This document shows positions 1-33,803 of a stretch of DNA of 35,286 bases, piece after piece. How positions within the stretch are numbered: the stretch's first letter is position 1; every line of letters starts with the position of its first letter. Location: contig WBUQ01000035.1 of assembly GCA_008933635.1 (NCBI GenBank), forward strand, positions 1 through 35,286, read 5' to 3'. The stretch is from Desulfobulbaceae bacterium (GTDB lineage: Bacteria > Desulfobacterota > Desulfobulbia > Desulfobulbales > Desulfocapsaceae). Made by a program: the position numbers and the translations under genes. A model generated the notes under the pieces. It did not search any database, was not told the DNA's origin, and worked only from the letters and a program-made list of their open reading frames with translations.

Positions 1-915
1 AGCGCTGAGGAGGAACCGCGGCAAAAGGTGATGCCGTCGGCGGCCAGGGTGCTCGCCCAGAACCGGATTCCTGAGGAGCGGGTGAGCGGTACCGGCCCGG
101 GTGACCGGGTGTTGAAGGAAGATGCCCTGCGGGCGGCGGCAGGGCAGCAGCCGAAACCATCGCGGGAAGAACGGCCCAGGCCGACCCCTGCCCCGGCCGC
201 GGAAAAACAAACGGCAGCCGGCGAGCACCGTGTCCCCATGCCCCTCTTGCGCCGGACCATTGCCACCCGGCTGCTCGAAGCCACCCAAAACATGGCGATG
301 GTGACGACCTTTAACGAAGCAGACATGGCGGAGGTCAAGAAACTGCGAGCGGATTTCGGCCATGATTTTTCAAGGGTGCATGAGGTGCGCCTTGGTTTCA
401 TGTCCTTTTTCGTCAAGGCGGTCGTTGCCGGGCTCGCTGAGTATCCGCTGGTCAATGCCCGGATCGACGGCGATGATATCGTCTATCACGATTACTGCGA
501 TATCGGGGTGGCCATCGGCGGAGGAAAGGGACTGGTGGTGCCGGTTCTACGCAATGCGCAAACGCTCAGTTTTGCCGAGATAGAGAGGAAAATAGCCGAT
601 TTCGGCCAAAGGGCGAAAGACAACACCCTCTCTCCCGATGAGCTGCGCGGCGGTACCTTTACCATCAGCAACGGCGGGGTCTATGGTTCGATGCTCTCTA
701 CACCCATCGTCAACCCACCGCAGAGCGCCATCCTGGGGTTGCACGCCATCAAGGACCGACCGGTGGCGGTGAACGGCGAAATTATCATCCGGCCGGTGAT
801 GTATCTGGCCCTCTCGTATGACCACCGCATCATCGACGGCCGCGAGGCGGTGAGTTTTCTCAAAAGCATAAAGGAGCGCATCGAGCAGCCGCACAAACTT
901 CTCCTGGGGATCTGA
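1..915 (+). CDS. sucB: Dihydrolipoyllysine succinyltransferase, E2 of 2-oxoglutarate dehydrogenase (5' end outside window)
   Basis: The reading frame is open from base 1, so the true start, the lipoyl domain and most of the linker lie upstream of the window; 304 residues are visible. Near the visible N-terminus is a peripheral subunit-binding domain ([21 protein letters not shown]...), which docks the E3 subunit. An Ala/Pro-rich linker follows, then the acyltransferase domain with [32 protein letters not shown] and the catalytic SYDHRIIDG (HxxxDG) motif. [15 protein letters not shown]-type and AIKDRP motifs match SucB rather than pyruvate dehydrogenase E2. The enzyme transfers the succinyl group from lipoamide to CoA in the TCA cycle. 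The next gene, E3, starts 2 bases after the stop, so the two are co-transcribed. The E1 gene (sucA) is expected just upstream. Confidence 0.93.
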
Positions 916-917
916 GC

Positions 918-2321
918 ATGGCTTCGGACAAGAGTGTCAACGAGAAGTACGATCTGCTGGTCATCGGCGCCGGGCCCGGCGGTTATGTCGCAGCCATCCG
1001 CGCCGCCCAGTTGGGAAAACGGGTGGCCTGCGTGGAGAGGGGCGCAACGCTTGGCGGCACCTGCCTCAACGTTGGCTGCATCCCGAGCAAGGCGCTGCTT
1101 GAGTCGTCTCACAGGTACCACCAGTGCAGGGAGGCAATGGCGGTCCACGGGGTCAGGTTGGAAGGGGTCTCCCTGGATCTCGGGGCCATGATGGCTCGCA
1201 AGGAGGGCATTGTCAGGACGCTCACCTCCGGCATCGACTACCTGTTGAAAACGAACGGGATCGAGAGGTTTACCGGCTCCGCCCGCCTTCTGGACAACCG
1301 GACGGTCCGGGTGTCCGGGAAGAGTGAGTCGACTCTCAAGGCAAAAGCCGTGCTGATAGCCACCGGCAGCAAGGCCGCCTCCATAGCCGGGGTGGAGATC
1401 GATGGGCGAAATATTGTCACCAGCACCGAAGCGCTCGCCTTCAGCGAGGTGCCCGGGCGGCTGGTGGTGGTAGGGGCCGGGGCGATTGGCCTGGAGCTGG
1501 GATCGGTATGGCACCGGCTGGGGGCGGAGGTCACGGTGGTGGAGTATATCGACCGGGTGCTGCCCGGCGCCGACGGGGATATTTCCCGGCAGGCTCTGAG
1601 GATATTGAAGAAACAGGGGTTGAAGTTCCTCTTAAAAGCCAGGGTGGAAAGCATCGAGCAGAGCGGCGAAGGATGCCGGGTCCATATTGCCGGCCGAAAA
1701 CCGCTGCCGGCCGATAAGGTTCTCATGGCCACAGGCCGCAGGCCTTCTACCGAAGGTTTGGGATTTGAGGAGCTTGGCGGCAGGACGGATCAGCTCGGCT
1801 TCATCGAGGTGGATTCCTCCTGGCAGACCTCCCTTGCCGGGGTGTATGCCATCGGCGATGTCATCGGCGGGGCGATGCTGGCCCACAAGGCCTCCGAAGA
1901 GGGCGTGGCCTGTGTGGAAAAGCTCTATACCGGCTACGGGAAGGTCAATTATCAGGCGATACCGGGCATAGTCTATACCCATCCGGAGGTGGCCTGGGTC
2001 GGCCGCACCGAGGATGACCTCGCGGCCGCAGGGGTGCCGATAAGAACGGGAACCTTCCCGTTCAAGGCCAACGGCAGGGCGCTGGCCCTTGGTGATGCCG
2101 ACGGGCTGGTCAAGGTCATCGCCCACCGGGATACCGACAGGCTGCTGGGGGTTCATATCATCGGCCCGCAGGCGGGGGATGTGCTTGCCGAGGCGGCGGC
2201 CGCCATGACGTTTGCCGCCAGCAGCGAGGATCTGGCCCGGGTCTGCCACGCCCACCCGACCCTCTCCGAGGCAGTGAAGGAAGCGGCCCTCAATGTCGAG
2301 AAGGCCGCCATTCACGGATGA
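918..2321 (+). CDS. lpdA: Dihydrolipoamide dehydrogenase (E3)
   Basis: This 467-residue protein has the full flavoprotein disulfide reductase layout. The N-terminal FAD fold carries GAGPGGYVAAIRAAQLG, and the redox-active disulfide is GGTCLNVGCIPSK (C49 and C54). A second GxGxxG fold, GAGAIGLELG, binds NAD. YAIGDV closes the FAD domain, and the C-terminal interface domain ends with HAHPTLSE, which supplies the His446/Glu451 dyad. It reoxidises dihydrolipoamide on the E2 subunit and reduces NAD+. The gene sits 2 bases after sucB and its stop overlaps the next start in the frame of an ATGA, so this is one transcription unit. Length and motifs are normal for the family. Confidence 0.95.
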   Translation: MASDKSVNEKYDLLVIGAGPGGYVAAIRAAQLGKRVACVERGATLGGTCLNVGCIPSKALLESSHRYHQCREAMAVHGVRLEGVSLDLGAMMARKEGIVRTLTSGIDYLLKTNGIERFTGSARLLDNRTVRVSGKSESTLKAKAVLIATGSKAASIAGVEIDGRNIVTSTEALAFSEVPGRLVVVGAGAIGLELGSVWHRLGAEVTVVEYIDRVLPGADGDISRQALRILKKQGLKFLLKARVESIEQSGEGCRVHIAGRKPLPADKVLMATGRRPSTEGLGFEELGGRTDQLGFIEVDSSWQTSLAGVYAIGDVIGGAMLAHKASEEGVACVEKLYTGYGKVNYQAIPGIVYTHPEVAWVGRTEDDLAAAGVPIRTGTFPFKANGRALALGDADGLVKVIAHRDTDRLLGVHIIGPQAGDVLAEAAAAMTFAASSEDLARVCHAHPTLSEAVKEAALNVEKAAIHG

Positions 2322-2362
2322 AAGGAAAGCAGGGCGAAGTCATTACACTCGAAGGAGCTGAT

Positions 2363-4318
2363 ATGGGCGCAAACCTGACCCGGAGAATCATGGAGTCCCA
2401 TCTCGTGGAAGGCCAGCTTGTGGCCGGCGAAGAGATAGCCCTTAAAATCGATCATACCCTGCTGCAGGATGCCACCGGCACCATGGCTATGCTGGAATTC
2501 GAGGCGCTGGGCCTGGACGGTGTCCGGGTAGATCTCGCCGCCCAGTATGTCGATCACAATCTTCTGCAGACCGATTTCAGAAACGCCGATGATCACCGCT
2601 ACCTGCAGAGTGCCTGCGCCCGCTACGGCATCCATTTCAGCATGCCGGGCAACGGCATCTCCCATCAGGTGCATCTGGAGAATTTCGGCAGGCCCGGCCT
2701 TACCCTCATCGGCGCGGACAGCCATACCCCGGCGGCAGCCGGCCTGTCCCTCCTGGCCTTTGGCGCAGGAGGCCTGGATGTCGCCCTGGCCATGGCGGGT
2801 CGCCCCTATTATCTGTCCTGCCCGAAGGTGCTGGGAGTCAAGCTGGTCGGCAGCCTGCCGCCCTGGGTGAGCGCCAAGGACATCATCCTGGAGATGCTGC
2901 GCCGCTATGGCGTGAAAGGCTGTGTGGGAATGGTGGTGGAATACTTCGGGCCGGGGGTGGCCTCCCTGACGGTGGAGGACCGGGCCGCCATCGGCAATAT
3001 GGGCACGGAGCTGGGAGCAACCAGTTCGATCTTCCCCTCCGACGACAACACCCGGAAATACCTGGCCGCCCAGCAGCGGGCGGCGGATTGGCAGCCGCTT
3101 CGCGCGGATGACAACGCGCTTTATGATGAATATGACGAAATAGATCTGGCCGCGGTCGAGCCGCTTATCGCCTGCCCTTCGTCGCCGGGCAATGTCGTTC
3201 GCGTCAGCGAGGTGGCGGGGCTTCAGGTGGACCAGGTCATCATCGGCTCCAGCGCCAACAGCGGACTGAAAGACCTGCTGCGGGTCTCCGCCATTGTCGA
3301 GGGACGCCACAGCAGTCCCCGGACCGATCTGCACATCAACCCCGGCAGCCGCCAGGTGCTGGAGAACGTGGTGGCTGCCGAAGGTTTGATGGGACTGATC
3401 AGGGCAGGCGCCAAGATTCATCAGTCCGGCTGCCTTGGCTGTATCGGCATGGGCCAGGCACCCGGCACCGGGCAGGTGAGCCTGCGCACCTTCCCCAGGA
3501 ACTTCCCCGGCCGTTCCGGCACGAAAGACGATCAGGTCTATCTCTGCTCTCCGGAGACGGCCGCGGCCGCGGCTCTGAAAGGGGTGATCACCGACCCGCG
3601 CACCCTGGCGAAAGAGATGGACTATCCTCAGGTCGACGATCCTGAGAAGCGGCTGGTGGACAGGTCTTCCATTGTCTACCCCTCGCGAGAGTTGCGTGCC
3701 ACCGAGGTCGTACGCGGGCCGAACATCAAGCCCTTTCCCGAGCTGGCTCCGCTGCCTGAGAGTCTGCGCCTGCAGGTGGCCATCAAGGTCGAGGATAATA
3801 TCTCGACCGATGCCATCATGCCGGCTGGCAACAGGGTGCTGCCGCTCAGATCCAATATCGAGGCTATCAGTCAATATGTCTTTTATCAGATTGCCCCTGA
3901 TTTTCATGAACGCTGCCGGCAGCTGGGCGATGTGGCAGTCATCGGTGGCGAGAATTACGGTCAAGGCTCCAGCCGGGAGCATGCCGCCCTGGCCCCCCGC
4001 TACCTCGGGGTGCGGGCCAAGATCGCAAAGAGCTATGCCCGCATCCACAAGGCGAATCTGTGCAATTTCGGCATTCTGCCGCTGACGCTGAAAAATCCCG
4101 CCGATTATGATCGGATACACGAAGCATCGGTGATCGAGTTGCCTGCTGTGAGGACCGCTATCGCCAAGGGGGCAACGGAGATACCCATCCGCGTCGACGG
4201 GCGGGAGGTGTTGACGTGCCTTGAGGTTTCCGACCGGCAACGGCAGTGTCTCCTGGCGGGGAGCACCTTGAACCTGGTCCGCGGGGAATTGGGGAAGATG
4301 CGGCAGCTCGATTCCTGA
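2363..4318 (+). CDS. Aconitate hydratase, compact Aquifex-type, with one altered cluster ligand
   Basis: This is a single-chain aconitase of 651 residues that interconverts citrate and isocitrate. An in-frame ATG at 2318 overlaps the lpdA stop, but the ATG at 2363 has a good Shine-Dalgarno (GAAGGAG, 2351-2357). It also gives the usual family N-terminus (MGANLTRRIMESHLVEG), so I use 2363. Visible family blocks are DQTL-like DHTLLQDATGTMA, YVDHNLLQT, NADDHRYLQ, GADSHTP, FPSDDNTRKYL, RTFPRNFPGRSGT, SPETAAAAAL and, in the swivel domain, NYGQGSSREHAAL. Two [4Fe-4S] cysteines are present in SGCLGCIGMG (C357, C360). The third, normally in IGSCTNS, is Ser297 here (IGSSANS; codon 3251-3253). It follows the 2-oxoglutarate dehydrogenase genes, giving a TCA operon. 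The fold assignment is firm; catalytic competence is uncertain because of Ser297. Confidence 0.9.
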   Translation: MGANLTRRIMESHLVEGQLVAGEEIALKIDHTLLQDATGTMAMLEFEALGLDGVRVDLAAQYVDHNLLQTDFRNADDHRYLQSACARYGIHFSMPGNGISHQVHLENFGRPGLTLIGADSHTPAAAGLSLLAFGAGGLDVALAMAGRPYYLSCPKVLGVKLVGSLPPWVSAKDIILEMLRRYGVKGCVGMVVEYFGPGVASLTVEDRAAIGNMGTELGATSSIFPSDDNTRKYLAAQQRAADWQPLRADDNALYDEYDEIDLAAVEPLIACPSSPGNVVRVSEVAGLQVDQVIIGSSANSGLKDLLRVSAIVEGRHSSPRTDLHINPGSRQVLENVVAAEGLMGLIRAGAKIHQSGCLGCIGMGQAPGTGQVSLRTFPRNFPGRSGTKDDQVYLCSPETAAAAALKGVITDPRTLAKEMDYPQVDDPEKRLVDRSSIVYPSRELRATEVVRGPNIKPFPELAPLPESLRLQVAIKVEDNISTDAIMPAGNRVLPLRSNIEAISQYVFYQIAPDFHERCRQLGDVAVIGGENYGQGSSREHAALAPRYLGVRAKIAKSYARIHKANLCNFGILPLTLKNPADYDRIHEASVIELPAVRTAIAKGATEIPIRVDGREVLTCLEVSDRQRQCLLAGSTLNLVRGELGKMRQLDS

Positions 4319-5712: not shown

Positions 5713-6114
5713 ATGATACCGAATCACCTTGCCGAGGCCCTGGAGCAGGCCGCGCAGGTCGGCCAGCTCTTTGTGGCCACGGCTGACGCCCATGGCGTTC
5801 CGCATCTGGCCATTGCCGAGGGAATCACCCTGGAAGGGGAGGATACGGTCGGCGTTACCGGCTGGTTCTGTCCCAGGACGGCAGAGAATACCGATGCGAA
5901 TGCAGGTATCTCCCTGGTTGTCTGGGATGCTCGACAGGATGCCGGGTTTCAGCTGATCGGCGAGGTGACGCAGATGCTTGATATTGCCATGCTGGATGGC
6001 TATATGCCGGGGGAGACCGAGGCCGCGGCCCAGGTTGAGCGAAAGCTGGTGGTCAGGGTCCATCACATCCTCACGTTCAGCCATGCGCACCATAGTGACA
6101 TCGATTTGGGGTGA
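5713..6114 (+). CDS. Pyridoxamine 5'-phosphate oxidase-like FMN-binding protein
   Basis: The start is ATG 5713 behind GGAGGGAAGAG; the frame is open upstream but lacks a ribosome site. The product has 133 residues. The pattern FVATADAHGVPHLAIAEGITLEGEDTV... followed by a VGVTGWF strand, GISLVVWDA and GFQLIGEV is that of the split-barrel FMN-binding PNPOx-like superfamily. Members range from true PNPOx to F420- or FMN-binding and heme-degrading proteins, so the substrate cannot be stated. A His-rich C-terminus (VHHILTFSHAHHSD) could bind metal. It is the last gene before an intrinsic terminator and probably co-transcribed with the ferritin-like gene. Confidence 0.75.
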   Translation: MIPNHLAEALEQAAQVGQLFVATADAHGVPHLAIAEGITLEGEDTVGVTGWFCPRTAENTDANAGISLVVWDARQDAGFQLIGEVTQMLDIAMLDGYMPGETEAAAQVERKLVVRVHHILTFSHAHHSDIDLG

Positions 6115-6173
6115 GGCTCGTGAGTAGCAAAAACATGGGGTCTTCAATTCAAGCTAAGCGGTATTCCTCAACC

Positions 6174-6201
6174 GGGCGAGGTCGACTCCTCGCCCTCTTT
6201 T
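6174..6201 (+). terminator. Rho-independent terminator
   Basis: A perfect 8-bp GC-rich stem, GGGCGAGG (6174-6181) with CCTCGCCC (6188-6195), has a 6-base loop and is followed directly by TCTTTT. It lies 60 bases after the PNPOx-like gene and before the oppositely oriented acetoacetyl-CoA synthetase, which is where a terminator is expected. Confidence 0.85.
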
Positions 6202-6229
6202 GGGCAACAGGTTGAATTATATTCCCTCA

Positions 6230-8182
<1,953 letters not shown>

Positions 8183-8244
8183 ATTGTGCCTCCATGGGTC
8201 GTTCAGGCTCTCGTCGTATCCTAACGACATCAGCCTCTACACGA

Positions 8245-8569: not shown

Positions 8570-8628
8570 CTGTAATACCAGCCTGATTCACCGGCATGAT
8601 CGATAAATGTCTCCTGGAGGTCCGGCAG

Positions 8629-9768
8629 ATGGATGATTCGCTTCATGAAGATCAGATATCGTTTCAAAAATCCGTCAGGGAATTCGCACGGAAGGAACTG
8701 AAACCGGGCGTGGCCCAGAGGGACGAAACGGGTGAATTCCCCCGTGAAGCAATAAACACAATGCAAAAGATGGGGCTGATGGGACTGGTTTTTCCCCCCG
8801 AATACGGCGGCAGGGGAATGGACTACGTCAGTTATACGGTCGCCGTCGAAGAATTGGCACGTGTCGATGCAGCGGCGGCAATCACCCTCCTGGCCCACAT
8901 GCTCTGTTCGTATCACATCTTCAGATTCGGCTCCGAAGAACAGAAGAAAAAACATCTCGCGCCCCTGGCGAATGGAGAGAAGCTGGGAGCCTGGGCACTC
9001 ACGGAACCGGGGGCCGGAAGCGATGCGGCCGCAATCGGGACCGAGGCGTATAACGAGGGGAAAGAGTGGGTGCTGAATGGGAATAAATTTTTCATCACCA
9101 ACGGTTCTCTGGCAGACACGCTGGTCGTCATGGCATCCACTGAAAAAAGCAGGGGAAGCAAAGGCATTTCCGCATTCATCATGGACGGTAACGCTCCGGG
9201 GCTCAGGAAAGGGAAAAATCTCGACAAACTCGGTTTCCGCTCCAGCAATACGGTCGGGCTTTTCCTGGAAAACGCCAGGATTCCCGAAATAAACATCATG
9301 GGTGAGCTGAACTCCGGGTTCTCGCAGACCATGGAAGTGCTGGACGCCGGCAGAATCGGACTTGCCGCGATGGCTGTCGGGATCGCGGCGGGATGCCTTG
9401 AATCCAGCATCGAATATGCGCGGGAAAGACAGGCATTCGGCAGCCCCATCGCCGATTATCAGGCCATCCAGTGGATGATAGCCGACATGGCGACGGAACT
9501 GGAGGCGTCCAGGCTCCTCGTCCGCAGGGCTGCGCGCCTTCACGATCAGCGCAGGAAATTCACCCTGGAGGCGTCCATGGCCAAGCTGTTCGCCTCCGAA
9601 ATGTGCGTGAGAGCGGCGCTCAAGGCCGTGCAGATCCACGGTGGTCACGGTTATATCAAGACCCATCCCGTAGAACGCTATCTCCGGGAGGCAAAACTGT
9701 GTGAAATCGGCGAGGGAACCTCGGAGATACAAAGAATGATAATCGCCAGGGAGATGTTGAAAACGTGA
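8629..9768 (+). CDS. Acyl-CoA dehydrogenase
   Basis: The start is ATG 8629 with GGAGG at 8616-8620; an in-frame ATG at 8596 lacks such a site. The 379-residue product is a full-length FAD-dependent acyl-CoA dehydrogenase. The N-terminal helical domain is followed by FPPEYGGRGMDYVSYTVAVEELARVD, the beta-domain signature GAWALTEPGAGSDAAA and the flavin-contacting FFITNGS. The C-terminal helical domain carries ERQAFGSPIADYQAIQWMIADM, IHGGHGYIKTHPVERYLREAK and IGEGTSEIQR. The catalytic base Glu362 sits in the EGT motif, the position used by short- and medium-chain enzymes. It oxidises an acyl-CoA to the 2-enoyl-CoA with ETF as acceptor. It leads a probable operon with the thiolase and DUF35 genes. 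The chain specificity is not readable. Confidence 0.93.
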   Translation: MDDSLHEDQISFQKSVREFARKELKPGVAQRDETGEFPREAINTMQKMGLMGLVFPPEYGGRGMDYVSYTVAVEELARVDAAAAITLLAHMLCSYHIFRFGSEEQKKKHLAPLANGEKLGAWALTEPGAGSDAAAIGTEAYNEGKEWVLNGNKFFITNGSLADTLVVMASTEKSRGSKGISAFIMDGNAPGLRKGKNLDKLGFRSSNTVGLFLENARIPEINIMGELNSGFSQTMEVLDAGRIGLAAMAVGIAAGCLESSIEYARERQAFGSPIADYQAIQWMIADMATELEASRLLVRRAARLHDQRRKFTLEASMAKLFASEMCVRAALKAVQIHGGHGYIKTHPVERYLREAKLCEIGEGTSEIQRMIIAREMLKT

Positions 9769-9874: not shown

Positions 9875-9915
9875 CCTCATTGTGTTCATCCTGTACTTTG
9901 TGAAAGGAGGTGGCC

Positions 9916-11205
9916 ATGCGTCCCGTGTACATGATTTCAGGCGGCATCACCAAATTCGCCAAGGCCCACCCGGAAATGGATTTCAGGCTTATGGTGAAAG
10001 AAGCCTTTGACTACGCCATGAACGACGTTCCCGGGCTCTCGCGGGAGATGATCGACGGAAGCATCTGTTCCTACTTTTCCGACCACTTCACCCGCCAGTT
10101 GAAGGCCGGAGCCATGGTACAAGACTATCTCGGCCTGTGTCCGAAACCGTCGAAAAGAGTGGAGGGCGGCGGAGCGACCGGCGGACTCGGCCTGCAGGCG
10201 GCCTGGGAGGCGGTGGCCTCGGGGAGGATGGAGGTATGCGTCGCCTTCGGCTTTGAGACCATGAGCCGGGTCAATACCTGGAAGGGAAACGAATTCATAG
10301 CTCAGGCCTCTGACACAAATTTCGATTATCCTGTGGGCGGTTTCTACACCGGATACTACGCAATGATGGTTCGTCGTCACATGCATGAATTCGGCACCAC
10401 GGTGGAGCAGATGGCCAAGGTTTCCGTGAAGAATCACCGCAACGCAGTGCACAATCCCTACGCCCAGAGTCCGGGGAAATTGACCATCGCGGATGTACGT
10501 TCATCGCCCATGGTTGCAACTCCCCTGACCATACTCGACTGCTGCCAGATGTCGGACGGGGCCGCAGTGGCTATACTCGCTTCGGAAGAGATTGCGGGAA
10601 AACTGTGCAGGAAACCGGTCAGGATTAGCGGCATCGGGTGTGGCACCGATGCCATGCGTATGGCGGATCGGCCGCACGGCAAGGTCATCCTGCTGCCCCA
10701 TGAATCGGAAGCTGATTACAAAGACCTCAGATATCCGGGGGTGCACTCGTTCCGCGGCGGAAGAACGGCGGCAAAGCTAGCCTACCGAATGGCCGGGATA
10801 CTGCACCCGGTCGAGGACCTCGACTTCATCGAACTTCACGACGCCTATACTTCATCGGAGATTCAGACCTATGAAGATCTCGGACTGTGCAGGTACGGCG
10901 AGGGCGGCCGTTTCGTCGACAACGGCTCACCATTCATGCCGGGAGTCGACTACGGGCTGGACCTGCCGGAACGTCCGGCAATAAGCATACCGGTCAATCC
11001 TTCGGGAGGCCTGCTCGCCTGCGGACATCCGGTGGGTGCCACCGGCCTGATGCAGGCGGCTTTCGCCTTCTGGCAGCTGCAGGGGACAACCGGCAAACAT
11101 CTGGGAGACGATACGCTGCAGTTGAAAGGGGCAAAAAGAGGGCTGATTCACAGCCATGCCGGGACGGGGACCTATATTACTGTTACGATTCTGGAAAAGG
11201 CCTGA
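9916..11205 (+). CDS. Thiolase-fold acyltransferase lacking the usual nucleophilic cysteine
   Basis: The start is ATG 9916 with AAAGGAGG (9903-9910) upstream; product 429 residues. It belongs to the SCP-x/archaeal type of thiolases that pair with DUF35 proteins. The usual acylation motif (VExxCATG) reads VEGGGATGG here, with Gly86 (codon 10171-10173) where the nucleophile normally sits. The other thiolase elements are present: IELHDAYTSSEIQTYEDLGL and the C-terminal GGLLACGHPVGATGLMQA, with its His and Cys. This points to a clade that either uses another residue or catalyses a condensation or acyl transfer different from classic thiolysis. The next gene encodes the likely obligate OB-fold partner 16 bases downstream. 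It could also be annotated as acetyl-CoA acetyltransferase, with reduced certainty about the reaction. Confidence 0.82.
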   Translation: MRPVYMISGGITKFAKAHPEMDFRLMVKEAFDYAMNDVPGLSREMIDGSICSYFSDHFTRQLKAGAMVQDYLGLCPKPSKRVEGGGATGGLGLQAAWEAVASGRMEVCVAFGFETMSRVNTWKGNEFIAQASDTNFDYPVGGFYTGYYAMMVRRHMHEFGTTVEQMAKVSVKNHRNAVHNPYAQSPGKLTIADVRSSPMVATPLTILDCCQMSDGAAVAILASEEIAGKLCRKPVRISGIGCGTDAMRMADRPHGKVILLPHESEADYKDLRYPGVHSFRGGRTAAKLAYRMAGILHPVEDLDFIELHDAYTSSEIQTYEDLGLCRYGEGGRFVDNGSPFMPGVDYGLDLPERPAISIPVNPSGGLLACGHPVGATGLMQAAFAFWQLQGTTGKHLGDDTLQLKGAKRGLIHSHAGTGTYITVTILEKA

Positions 11206-11221
11206 AGTAAACGGAGGGAGC

Positions 11222-11701
11222 ATGAGCCAAAATATCAAACTTCCGGAGACGGAGGAGGGAACAATTCTCTTCAATGTCGACCCGATTATAATCAAACAGC
11301 ATTACGAGATCGATTACCTCCATTCGTACGCTCAGGATTCCCCCTTCTTCGCCGGACTGGCAAAGGGGAAGCTTCTGGGAAGCAGGTGCACCGGCTGCGG
11401 CTATACCTATGCAACACCTCGCGGCCACTGCATGGAGTGCGGCGAAAAGACCGACTGGTTCGAGCTTCCCCAGAACGGTCGGGTTCACACCTTCACCACT
11501 TGCCATTTCGGAGGCGAAGCCTTTCTGAAGGAAACGCCGTTTACTCTTGTACTGGTTGAGTTCGATGGAGTCGAAACACTCTTCCTGTCGCGCCTGATTG
11601 GGGTTGAAGCCGACAATGTGCAGATCGGCATGCCGGTACGCGCAAGATTTCTGCGCAACAGCAAGTTCATGGCTACCGACGTGTATTTCGTGCCGGAGTG
11701 A
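11222..11701 (+). CDS. DUF35 OB-fold/zinc-ribbon protein, thiolase partner
   Basis: A 159-residue protein starts at ATG 11222 behind GGAGGGA (11213-11219). After an N-terminal helical segment (IIIKQHYEIDYLHSYAQDSPFFAGLAKGKLLGSR) comes a rubredoxin-like zinc ribbon (CTGCGYTYATPRGHCMECG). An OB-fold follows: GRVHTFTTCH, PFTLVLVEFDG, SRLIG, GMPVRARF. This order defines the DUF35 family, whose archaeal and BbsA-type members form complexes with thiolases and organise or shuttle the acyl-CoA intermediate. The position 16 bases after the thiolase gene supports a complex. It ends the operon; no clear terminator follows. Confidence 0.9.
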   Translation: MSQNIKLPETEEGTILFNVDPIIIKQHYEIDYLHSYAQDSPFFAGLAKGKLLGSRCTGCGYTYATPRGHCMECGEKTDWFELPQNGRVHTFTTCHFGGEAFLKETPFTLVLVEFDGVETLFLSRLIGVEADNVQIGMPVRARFLRNSKFMATDVYFVPE

Positions 11702-33197: not shown

Positions 33198-33803
33198 TTA
33201 CCTGGAGAGGATTTTTTGTGTTTTCTGGTCTCTCCTTAAAGGATAAAACTGCCGGTCGGCTCTGCACACTACCCTTGGAGCGTCTGGCTTCCATGTTGGT
33301 TGTGGCAACTTTGCAATATCATCAACCTCCTGCGAAGGAGAAAGATAAGCCCTCCCGCGGTCACCTTCCGCAACAACTGCCATCAGTCGTACGCCCATCC
33401 TCCATGCATTGGCTTCGTCGTCAATATAGGAGTAGCGAAAAGGGGTGTTGGACATCAGGCATCGAAAACTTCCTTGTGATAATTTTGTCCCCTTTTTTAC
33501 AGCTTCAGTATCCTTCGGCTTTCCCACTTTTACCATGAACCGGTAAGTGCTCCCCTCGATCACCGGCTCGACATAGGCCTCCATGCCCGCCTTCGTCGAG
33601 AGCATAAAGGTCGAAGCCAGTGGCACCTCGACCTCGGCGAAGGCCAGGTTCGGGCTTTTCACCGCCCGGGCCGCCGCCAGTGGCCGCCGCGCCCACCACA
33701 GATGGAGGGTGCTGGTATGGCTGTGACGGATCGATTTCTCCCGGGCACAGGCCTTGTTGATCGCATCGAGGGGCAGGGCCACCTCAATGAGCTTCTTTTT
33801 CAT
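33198..33803 (-). pseudogene. Deletion remnant of a DUF1156 DNA-methylase-type protein
   Basis: The first 48 residues ([29 protein letters not shown]...[16 protein letters not shown]) are the conserved N-terminus of DUF1156 adenine-specific methylases, normally about 900-1000 residues. At about 33659 the sequence jumps directly to the C-terminal region ([23 protein letters not shown]...[13 protein letters not shown]...[22 protein letters not shown]...WKPDAP). From about 33275 it leaves the family and ends in [17 protein letters not shown]. The whole methyltransferase core is gone. The N-terminal junction is in frame, so a 201-residue chimera may be made but cannot be an active methylase. Intact relatives belong to restriction or phage-defence loci. 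No ribosome site is visible. Confidence 0.8.

Follow-up and report, generated by a model that had tools for sequence, protein, structure and literature searches.

A cysteine-less thiolase-fold protein and its DUF35 partner as a candidate retro-aldolase of short branched acyl-CoAs

The known pairs of a DUF35 protein with a thiolase-fold protein that lacks the nucleophilic cysteine, Ltp2 and Sal, are retro-aldolases, according to the accessible text of PMC12329534. The same text reports that CtSal carries a glycine at the nucleophile position and hence performs no thiolysis, that a model has the amide of this Gly89 touching the hydroxyl of the substrate, and that catalysis falls to Tyr302 and Cys304 in CtSal and to Tyr294 and Tyr344 in TcLtp2. 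In the igr system, as described in the accessible part of PMC12502768, a dehydrogenase, a hydratase and an Ltp2:DUF35 pair take off a propionyl unit as propionyl-CoA. Here we analyzed THL-A, a thiolase-fold protein without the acylation cysteine, and its DUF35 partner, both encoded on a 35,286-nucleotide stretch of Desulfobulbaceae DNA (WBUQ01000035.1, our contig C197; hereafter the window) from an assembly of 4.55 Mb in 240 contigs that is 96% complete. THL-A:DUF35 is probably an aldol or retro-aldol enzyme acting on some 3-hydroxyacyl-CoA, a chemistry class that is well supported, while the exact substrate, reaction, direction and histidine roles are what we infer from context. Our tentative choice, to which we give slightly less than an even chance, is that it cleaves 3-hydroxyisobutyryl-CoA to propionyl-CoA and formaldehyde.

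THL-A has 429 residues and occupies positions 9916 to 11205 of the forward strand, its reading frame starting at a GTG at 9910 or an ATG at 9916. Its nucleophile motif reads VEGGGATGG (residues 82-90, positions 10159 to 10185), and phmmer alignments place Gly86 (codon 10171-10173) in the column that holds Cys in the archaeal protein 6esq (RVEAACASG) and in BbsB (VQSACSAG). Our family sample comprised the window and the best 80 of 253 stretches encoding relatives (n = 81), drawn, going by record names, from Nitrospirota, Nitrospinota, anammox Planctomycetota, Geobacteraceae, Methylomirabilota, Chloroflexi, Actinobacteria, Bacillota, Undinarchaeales and others. Because residue 86 is Gly in all 81 sequences (the 80 relatives at 72-86% identity; no internal stops), neither chance nor sequencing error accounts for it; the replacement of Cys by Gly is a fixed family trait.

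The acylating cysteine alone is gone, and the other thiolase features are largely kept. In the CGHP motif (residues 369-372, positions 11020 to 11031, within CGHPVGATG at 369-377), His371 is present in all 81 sequences, and residue 369, which we take to be the second, acid/base position of thiolases, is Cys in 73, Ser in 7 and Phe in 1. The HDAY motif (residues 308-311, positions 10837 to 10848) places a histidine where alignment with Ltp2-type sequences puts the catalytic Tyr of Ltp2 and Sal; position 308 is His in 80 of the 81 and Tyr in one (L061). A loop reading HSHAGTGT (residues 412-419, positions 11149 to 11172) is invariant, and its AGTG ending recurs in 4 of 7 Ltp2-type rows and in none of 4 Cys-bearing rows, the sister family that we call family B reading AGVG. 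The initial annotation, which described the glycine motif and the retained HDAY and CGHPVGATG motifs, was right on all of these and on their coordinates.

That annotation had also raised the possibility that another cysteine fills the nucleophile pocket. Comparing the 81 sequences and their Cys-bearing relatives, we found no candidate by sequence. The window protein lacks Cys92; Cys210 and Cys325 never vary, yet the Cys-bearing 6esq and BbsB have Cys at both positions; and Cys369 was set aside, being Ser in seven and Phe in one. THL-A thus has the fold of a thiolase without its acylation cysteine, and thiolysis through an acyl-enzyme is unlikely given Gly86 throughout the family, so the proposal of a chemistry other than classic thiolysis very probably holds. 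In our reading, aldol or retro-aldol chemistry would suit such a protein because it could make and protonate an acyl-CoA enolate but not form an acyl-enzyme. Loss of the nucleophile could also point to a noncatalytic scaffold or pseudoenzyme. We consider this highly improbable, as 136 of 429 residues, those of the HSHAGTG loop and His371 among them, do not vary in the 81 sequences, which come from many phyla, and as the family has a separate DUF35 gene, as active aldolases do.

Family models and structure comparison agree on the fold. THL-A scores above the Pfam cut-offs for Thiolase_N (50.4 bits, cut-off 26.4) and Thiolase_C_1 (88.5 bits, cut-off 28). Its best NCBIfam match is NF004982 (PRK06365, "thiolase domain-containing protein," a name that carries no function), which it approaches at 690.9 and 692.9 bits, just below the cut-off of 695; the next-best family reaches 312.7 bits. 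Its 170.3 bits against the BbsB model NF053628 (cut-off 750) place it outside that family. An AlphaFold model (mean pLDDT 80.9, pTM 0.88; low confidence at 58-60, 121-123, 125-145, 200-210 and 246-253) matched solved thiolases at Z 34-48, best of all SCP2-type and archaeal thiolases (7yvy, Z 48.3; 6esq, Z 47.1), which score above Ltp2 (6ok1, Z 40.1) and Sal (9myr, Z 39.4). By sequence, too, thiolases come closest among the solved proteins (170 and 160 bits), with Ltp2 at 72 and Sal at 64 bits.

In a tree of 25 rows, which used 10 of 25 aligned THL-A rows, left out L162 and L164 and did not sample Sal, THL-A and family B form one clade (support 100/99) and the Ltp2-type rows, recognized through their match to 6ok1 (587 bits), form another (100/100). 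Four Cys-bearing proteins sit between the two. A single clade of all sampled Cys-less rows, Sal not among them, is not rejected (p-AU 0.24), and the tree is compatible with either one or two losses of the acylation cysteine.

The DUF35 gene (159 residues, positions 11222 to 11701, forward strand) starts 16 bases after THL-A, and a purine-rich ribosome-binding stretch precedes each of the two. Its product combines a zinc ribbon and an OB fold, exceeding the cut-offs of OB_ChsH2_C (56.8 bits, cut-off 27.1) and zf-ChsH2 (34.1 bits, cut-off 23.2) and also having the four zinc-ribbon cysteines (56, 59, 70 and 73). Upstream, 147 bases away, ends an acyl-CoA dehydrogenase gene (8596 to 9768, forward strand) identified by its Pfam Acyl-CoA_dh domains; its closest solved proteins are short-chain/butyryl-CoA dehydrogenases, and it probably shares a transcript with THL-A. 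Divergent from it, across 365 bases, lies the acetoacetyl-CoA synthetase gene AacS (6230 to 8230, reverse strand; TIGR01217, 926 bits, cut-off 521).

We counted neighboring genes over the 81 loci by clustering and tblastn; some loci end at contig ends, and family names come from scanned representatives, in many cases one per cluster, E1 alpha and ETF beta being named by eye. DUF35 follows within 2.5 kb in 68 loci; of the remaining 13, four run out of contig within about 1 kb and two have DUF35 farther on. A B12-dependent mutase subunit is found in 45 loci (the large subunit in 34; in 38 the small subunit precedes THL-A on its strand, no more than 1.6 kb away) and an acyl-CoA dehydrogenase in 41, with one or the other in 70. 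The mutase accompanies every one of the 22 loci with MeaB and of the 10 with PrpD or PrpB, the methylcitrate enzymes that consume propionyl-CoA. The initial annotation had assigned the DUF35 and dehydrogenase genes to the same system as THL-A, and both assignments stand; in 31 loci the dehydrogenase gene has the orientation of THL-A and is no more than 2.6 kb from it. It was also right that AacS is divergent, but the recurrence of AacS with THL-A is weak: AacS or a relative occurs in 10 loci, 7 of these being the window gene itself or close relatives (61-72% identity).

Two loci show how these genes can lie together. In L016 (Nitrospirota), one strand carries pyruvate-dehydrogenase-type E1 subunits and E2, a thiolase, hydroxybutyryl-CoA dehydrogenase and the mutase large subunit, then a metallo-beta-lactamase-fold protein, the mutase small subunit, THL-A, DUF35 and MeaB, and last a hydratase, PrpD, PrpB, citrate synthase and an acyl-CoA ligase. 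In L057, the genes for both mutase subunits, a corrinoid adenosyltransferase, a hydratase, THL-A, DUF35, a dehydrogenase and MeaB adjoin one another, accompanied by genes for ETF-like subunits and an iron-sulfur protein. Separately, we observed that a metallo-beta-lactamase-fold hydrolase (L055:6730-7575 and relatives; nearest to YtnP lactonase, below cut-off) occurs in 24 loci; in several Nitrospirota its gene has a mutase subunit gene on either side. In an anammox locus (L041:10863-16441), the mutase and THL-A genes are followed by genes that by eye resemble anaerobic lysine degradation (a cleavage enzyme, a dehydrogenase, and lysine 2,3- and 5,6-aminomutase-like genes). One Thermoleophilia genome carries THL-A twice on a single contig, the copies (L052 and L059) separated by about 1 Mb, and in L039 the gene immediately upstream of THL-A (6111-7499) encodes a thiolase relative of the HDCF type (37% identity) that looks ordinary.

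We read the specificity residues of the B12-dependent mutases. The clustered large subunits have Phe and Gln at two specificity sites in 33 of 33 cases, which we take to be the isobutyryl-CoA mutase pair. Tyr and Arg at these sites mark methylmalonyl-CoA mutase (PMC7238569, citing Jost et al., in its accessible text). A Phe/Gln-type mutase occurs in 71 of 80 carrier genomes, the window's own included, a count that has no like-for-like control over all phyla. The 46 carrier genomes, other than the window's, that have no clustered large subunit in the locus contribute 37 of these, of which 27 are stand-alone by their residues (that of G222 from two fragments), 8 are fused by their residues and 2 (G198 and G207) are recognized by IcmF score only. 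The window's genome encodes an IcmF (1864.5 bits, cut-off 1500) with Phe and Gln and with an acyl-CoA dehydrogenase one gene away; it is of the canonical form, the only IcmF form there, and a separate Tyr/Arg mutase is present as well. We also considered 2-hydroxyisobutyryl-CoA mutase, the best solved relative (604 bits) of the single adjacent mutase compared, and rejected it: the sites read Phe and Ala, and those of that enzyme are presumably Ile90 and Asp117.

An isobutyrate-degrading syntroph keeps its mutase, adenosyltransferase and MeaB genes together and converts isobutyrate to butyrate (accessible text of PMC5017805); the mutase of THL-A carriers would run the opposite way, from butyryl-CoA to isobutyryl-CoA. 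In the valine pathway, isobutyryl-CoA is converted by a dehydrogenase and a hydratase to 3-hydroxyisobutyryl-CoA (accessible text of PMC7100375). A classical continuation by way of methylmalonate-semialdehyde dehydrogenase (MMSDH) is rarely seen, the enzyme scoring above cut-off (448.5 bits) in 1 of 46 carrier genomes, compared with 5 of 14 control genomes. The initial annotation had left open a condensing or acyl-transfer role. Retro-aldol cleavage is favored by the wider context, namely the isobutyryl-type mutase, the hydratase, the methylcitrate genes and the rarity of MMSDH above cut-off.

We propose that the mutase would turn butyryl-CoA into isobutyryl-CoA, which the acyl-CoA dehydrogenase would oxidize to methacrylyl-CoA and the enoyl-CoA hydratase would convert to 3-hydroxyisobutyryl-CoA. 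THL-A:DUF35 would then bind a 2-methyl-3-hydroxyacyl-CoA, most likely this one. A histidine, His308 or His371, would take the proton of the 3-hydroxyl group, and the backbone of Gly86, at the place of the acyl-cysteine, would give room to and bind the departing carbonyl. As the C2-C3 bond breaks, His371 or Cys369 would reprotonate the propionyl-CoA enolate. The products would be formaldehyde and propionyl-CoA, the latter entering the methylcitrate cycle or the methylmalonyl-CoA mutase route.

Several observations weigh against this proposal. The catalytic Tyr of Ltp2 and Sal is replaced by His, an enoyl-CoA hydratase is near in only 15 of the 81 loci, and the AacS gene adjacent in the window is not accounted for. 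No formaldehyde gene recurs near THL-A in the 81 loci; an alcohol dehydrogenase adjacent in L050 has formaldehyde dehydrogenase as its nearest family, far below cut-off (139 of 637 bits). Nine of the 80 carrier genomes, many of them metagenome-assembled, showed no Phe/Gln mutase (four without any mutase match, four with the Tyr/Arg type only and one with a truncated gene). Our scan for the classical valine route covered MMSDH, and 12 more of the 46 carrier genomes have MMSDH-like matches below cut-off (340-393 bits). Finally, within 48 genomes of one Geobacteraceae family (9 THL-A carriers, 39 noncarriers), canonical IcmF showed no association with THL-A (4 of 9 versus 20 of 39) and was rejected as its partner there, and any fused mutase was found in 8 of 9 versus 21 of 39 (p 0.07). 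What counts for the proposal in these genomes is that a second, IcmF-like fused mutase was present in 7 of 9 carriers versus 2 of 39 noncarriers (one-sided Fisher p 1.6e-5; Phe and Gln in all 7), in a test that was picked after seeing the data and that ignores relatedness. This second mutase (L144-L147; G208, G226, G213, G271) has about 1,040-1,160 residues and scores 560-880 bits with the IcmF model, below cut-off; the neighborhoods in L144-L147 have no pathway genes in common, and one neighbor is common to L145 and L147 only.

Alternatively, the enzyme may act in the condensing direction, catalyzing the aldol addition of propionyl-CoA, or else acetyl-CoA, to an aldehyde such as formaldehyde for C1 assimilation or biosynthesis. 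Aldol reactions are reversible, and autotrophic and C1-using groups are, by record names, among the carriers; the adjoining methylcitrate-cycle genes, however, use up propionyl-CoA in 10 loci, and no formaldehyde supplier is found in the loci, which leaves this quite unlikely. Another reading is a retro-Claisen hydrolase or acyl transferase in which water or another residue stands in for the cysteine, for example converting methylmalonyl-semialdehyde-CoA to propionyl-CoA and formate. It would draw on the retained His371 and, usually, Cys369 and on the 3-hydroxyacyl-CoA (3-hydroxybutyryl-CoA) dehydrogenase in 20 of the 81 loci. That dehydrogenase, however, mostly goes with an ordinary Cys-bearing thiolase (a gene counted in 19 of all 81 loci) in Nitrospirota-type loci and goes unseen in most others, and position 86 has not been taken over by an invariant Ser, Thr or Cys; we regard this reading as improbable.

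The AacS gene raises a further alternative, that THL-A is an analogue of 3-hydroxy-3-methylglutaryl-CoA (HMG-CoA) lyase at the end of leucine degradation, yielding acetyl-CoA and acetoacetate that AacS would activate, or a 3-hydroxyisovaleryl-CoA lyase yielding acetone. Besides the divergent AacS, it counts for this role that a search of the window's genome gave no HMG-CoA lyase above cut-off, and family B offers a suggestive setting. This sister family (L089:8894-14443, L090, L091 and L092) is likewise Cys-less (VKTGGATGG), followed by its own DUF35 gene and with a helix-turn-helix regulator nearby. It shares a clade with THL-A at 45% identity, has CMHS or CMHA instead of CGHP, scores 713 bits with NF004982 (above cut-off) and reaches about 350-374 bits against the THL-A profile. 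The four neighborhoods read, among 16 carriers, hold an AacS that matches the window's at 62% identity, together with an acyl-CoA dehydrogenase whose motif we take to be isovaleryl-CoA-dehydrogenase (IVD)-like. This makes the HMG-CoA or 3-hydroxyisovaleryl-CoA lyase role a real rival, at least for family B. We rejected family B as a replacement for HMG-CoA lyase, since that lyase is over cut-off in 6 of 16 carriers versus 0 of 19 same-family noncarriers, a distribution unlike a replacement. For THL-A the role is unlikely: its recurrent neighbor is the isobutyryl-type mutase and not leucine genes, AacS or a relative is confined to 10 of the 81 loci, and carrier G207 has an HMG-CoA lyase (437 bits) alongside THL-A. 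Among 193 genomes sampled from the window's class, 16 have family B and only the window's own has THL-A, which suggests lateral acquisition of THL-A.

Elsewhere in the window, positions 1 to 4318 (forward strand) encode in series a SucB-type E2 truncated where the contig stops, a dihydrolipoyl dehydrogenase and an aconitase of the PRK07229 family; all scores there except PRK05704 exceed curated cut-offs. At 33198 to 33803 (reverse strand), a 201-residue open reading frame appears by eye to fuse the N-terminal end of a DNA methylase of the DUF1156 type to a later part of it and is perhaps a remnant with an internal deletion.

If cleavage of 3-hydroxyisobutyryl-CoA is correct, a family present in at least 80 genomes, and labeled in curated models with such names as "thiolase domain-containing protein," would cleave C-C bonds of short branched acyl-CoAs, two histidines standing in for the tyrosine machinery of the steroid aldolases. 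Members in Nitrospirota, anammox bacteria, NC10 and Geobacteraceae would gain an MMSDH-independent route from C4-CoA to C3-CoA and C1, and B12 mutases would be tied to formaldehyde metabolism. It is possible, though doubtful, that the lyase reaction is pivotal to a central route not yet described, leading from butyryl-CoA through isobutyryl-CoA to propionyl-CoA and formaldehyde. In some Nitrospirota, the gene set could close a cycle that oxidizes acetyl-CoA by way of formaldehyde; L016 unites the pyruvate-dehydrogenase-type complex, acetoacetyl-CoA thiolase, 3-hydroxybutyryl-CoA dehydrogenase, mutase, lyase, hydratase and methylcitrate genes.

We found no natural enzyme that cleaves 3-hydroxyisobutyryl-CoA in the literature searched, including the accessible text of PMC7100375 and PMC8706239, most subscription papers lying outside the search. 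The classical valine route (hydrolase, dehydrogenase, MMSDH) would share this substrate and a C3 product but passes through free 3-hydroxyisobutyrate and methylmalonate semialdehyde. The initial annotation had likened the pair to archaeal and BbsAB-type complexes, and for the DUF35 partner the likeness holds: BbsAB benzoylsuccinyl-CoA thiolase (7pxp) and the archaeal thiolase/HMG-CoA synthase complex (6esq) have the same fold and a DUF35 subunit and are nearer to THL-A in sequence (157 and 170 bits). As templates they fall short, because both keep the nucleophilic Cys, and Ltp2 and Sal offer the better comparison. CtSal with its DUF35 partner Shy, a bile acid aldolase (9myr), shares the fold, the Gly at the Cys position and the DUF35 protein, and differs in its YDCY motif, where the Tyr302 and Cys304 reported as catalytic in the accessible text of PMC12329534 correspond to His308 and Ala310 in THL-A. 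Ltp2-ChsH2 (6ok1; igr/chsE-chsH-ltp2) shares the thiolase fold, the Gly, the DUF35 partner and the company of a dehydrogenase and a hydratase, and it releases propionyl-CoA from a 2-methyl-3-hydroxyacyl-CoA (accessible text of PMC12502768); the cleavage proposed for THL-A would be the smallest version of this reaction. It differs in its steroid substrate, its separate placement in our tree (where a single Cys-less clade is not rejected) and the lack of a B12 mutase in its system, and also in its residues: the Tyr of its YDHF motif aligns with His308, and a Tyr 50 residues further on, which fits Tyr344, aligns with His371. Because THL-A has the glycine and the DUF35 partner gene of Ltp2 and Sal but not their catalytic Tyr, we do not file it with either, and regard it, judging from sequence, as a new variant that most likely works like them.

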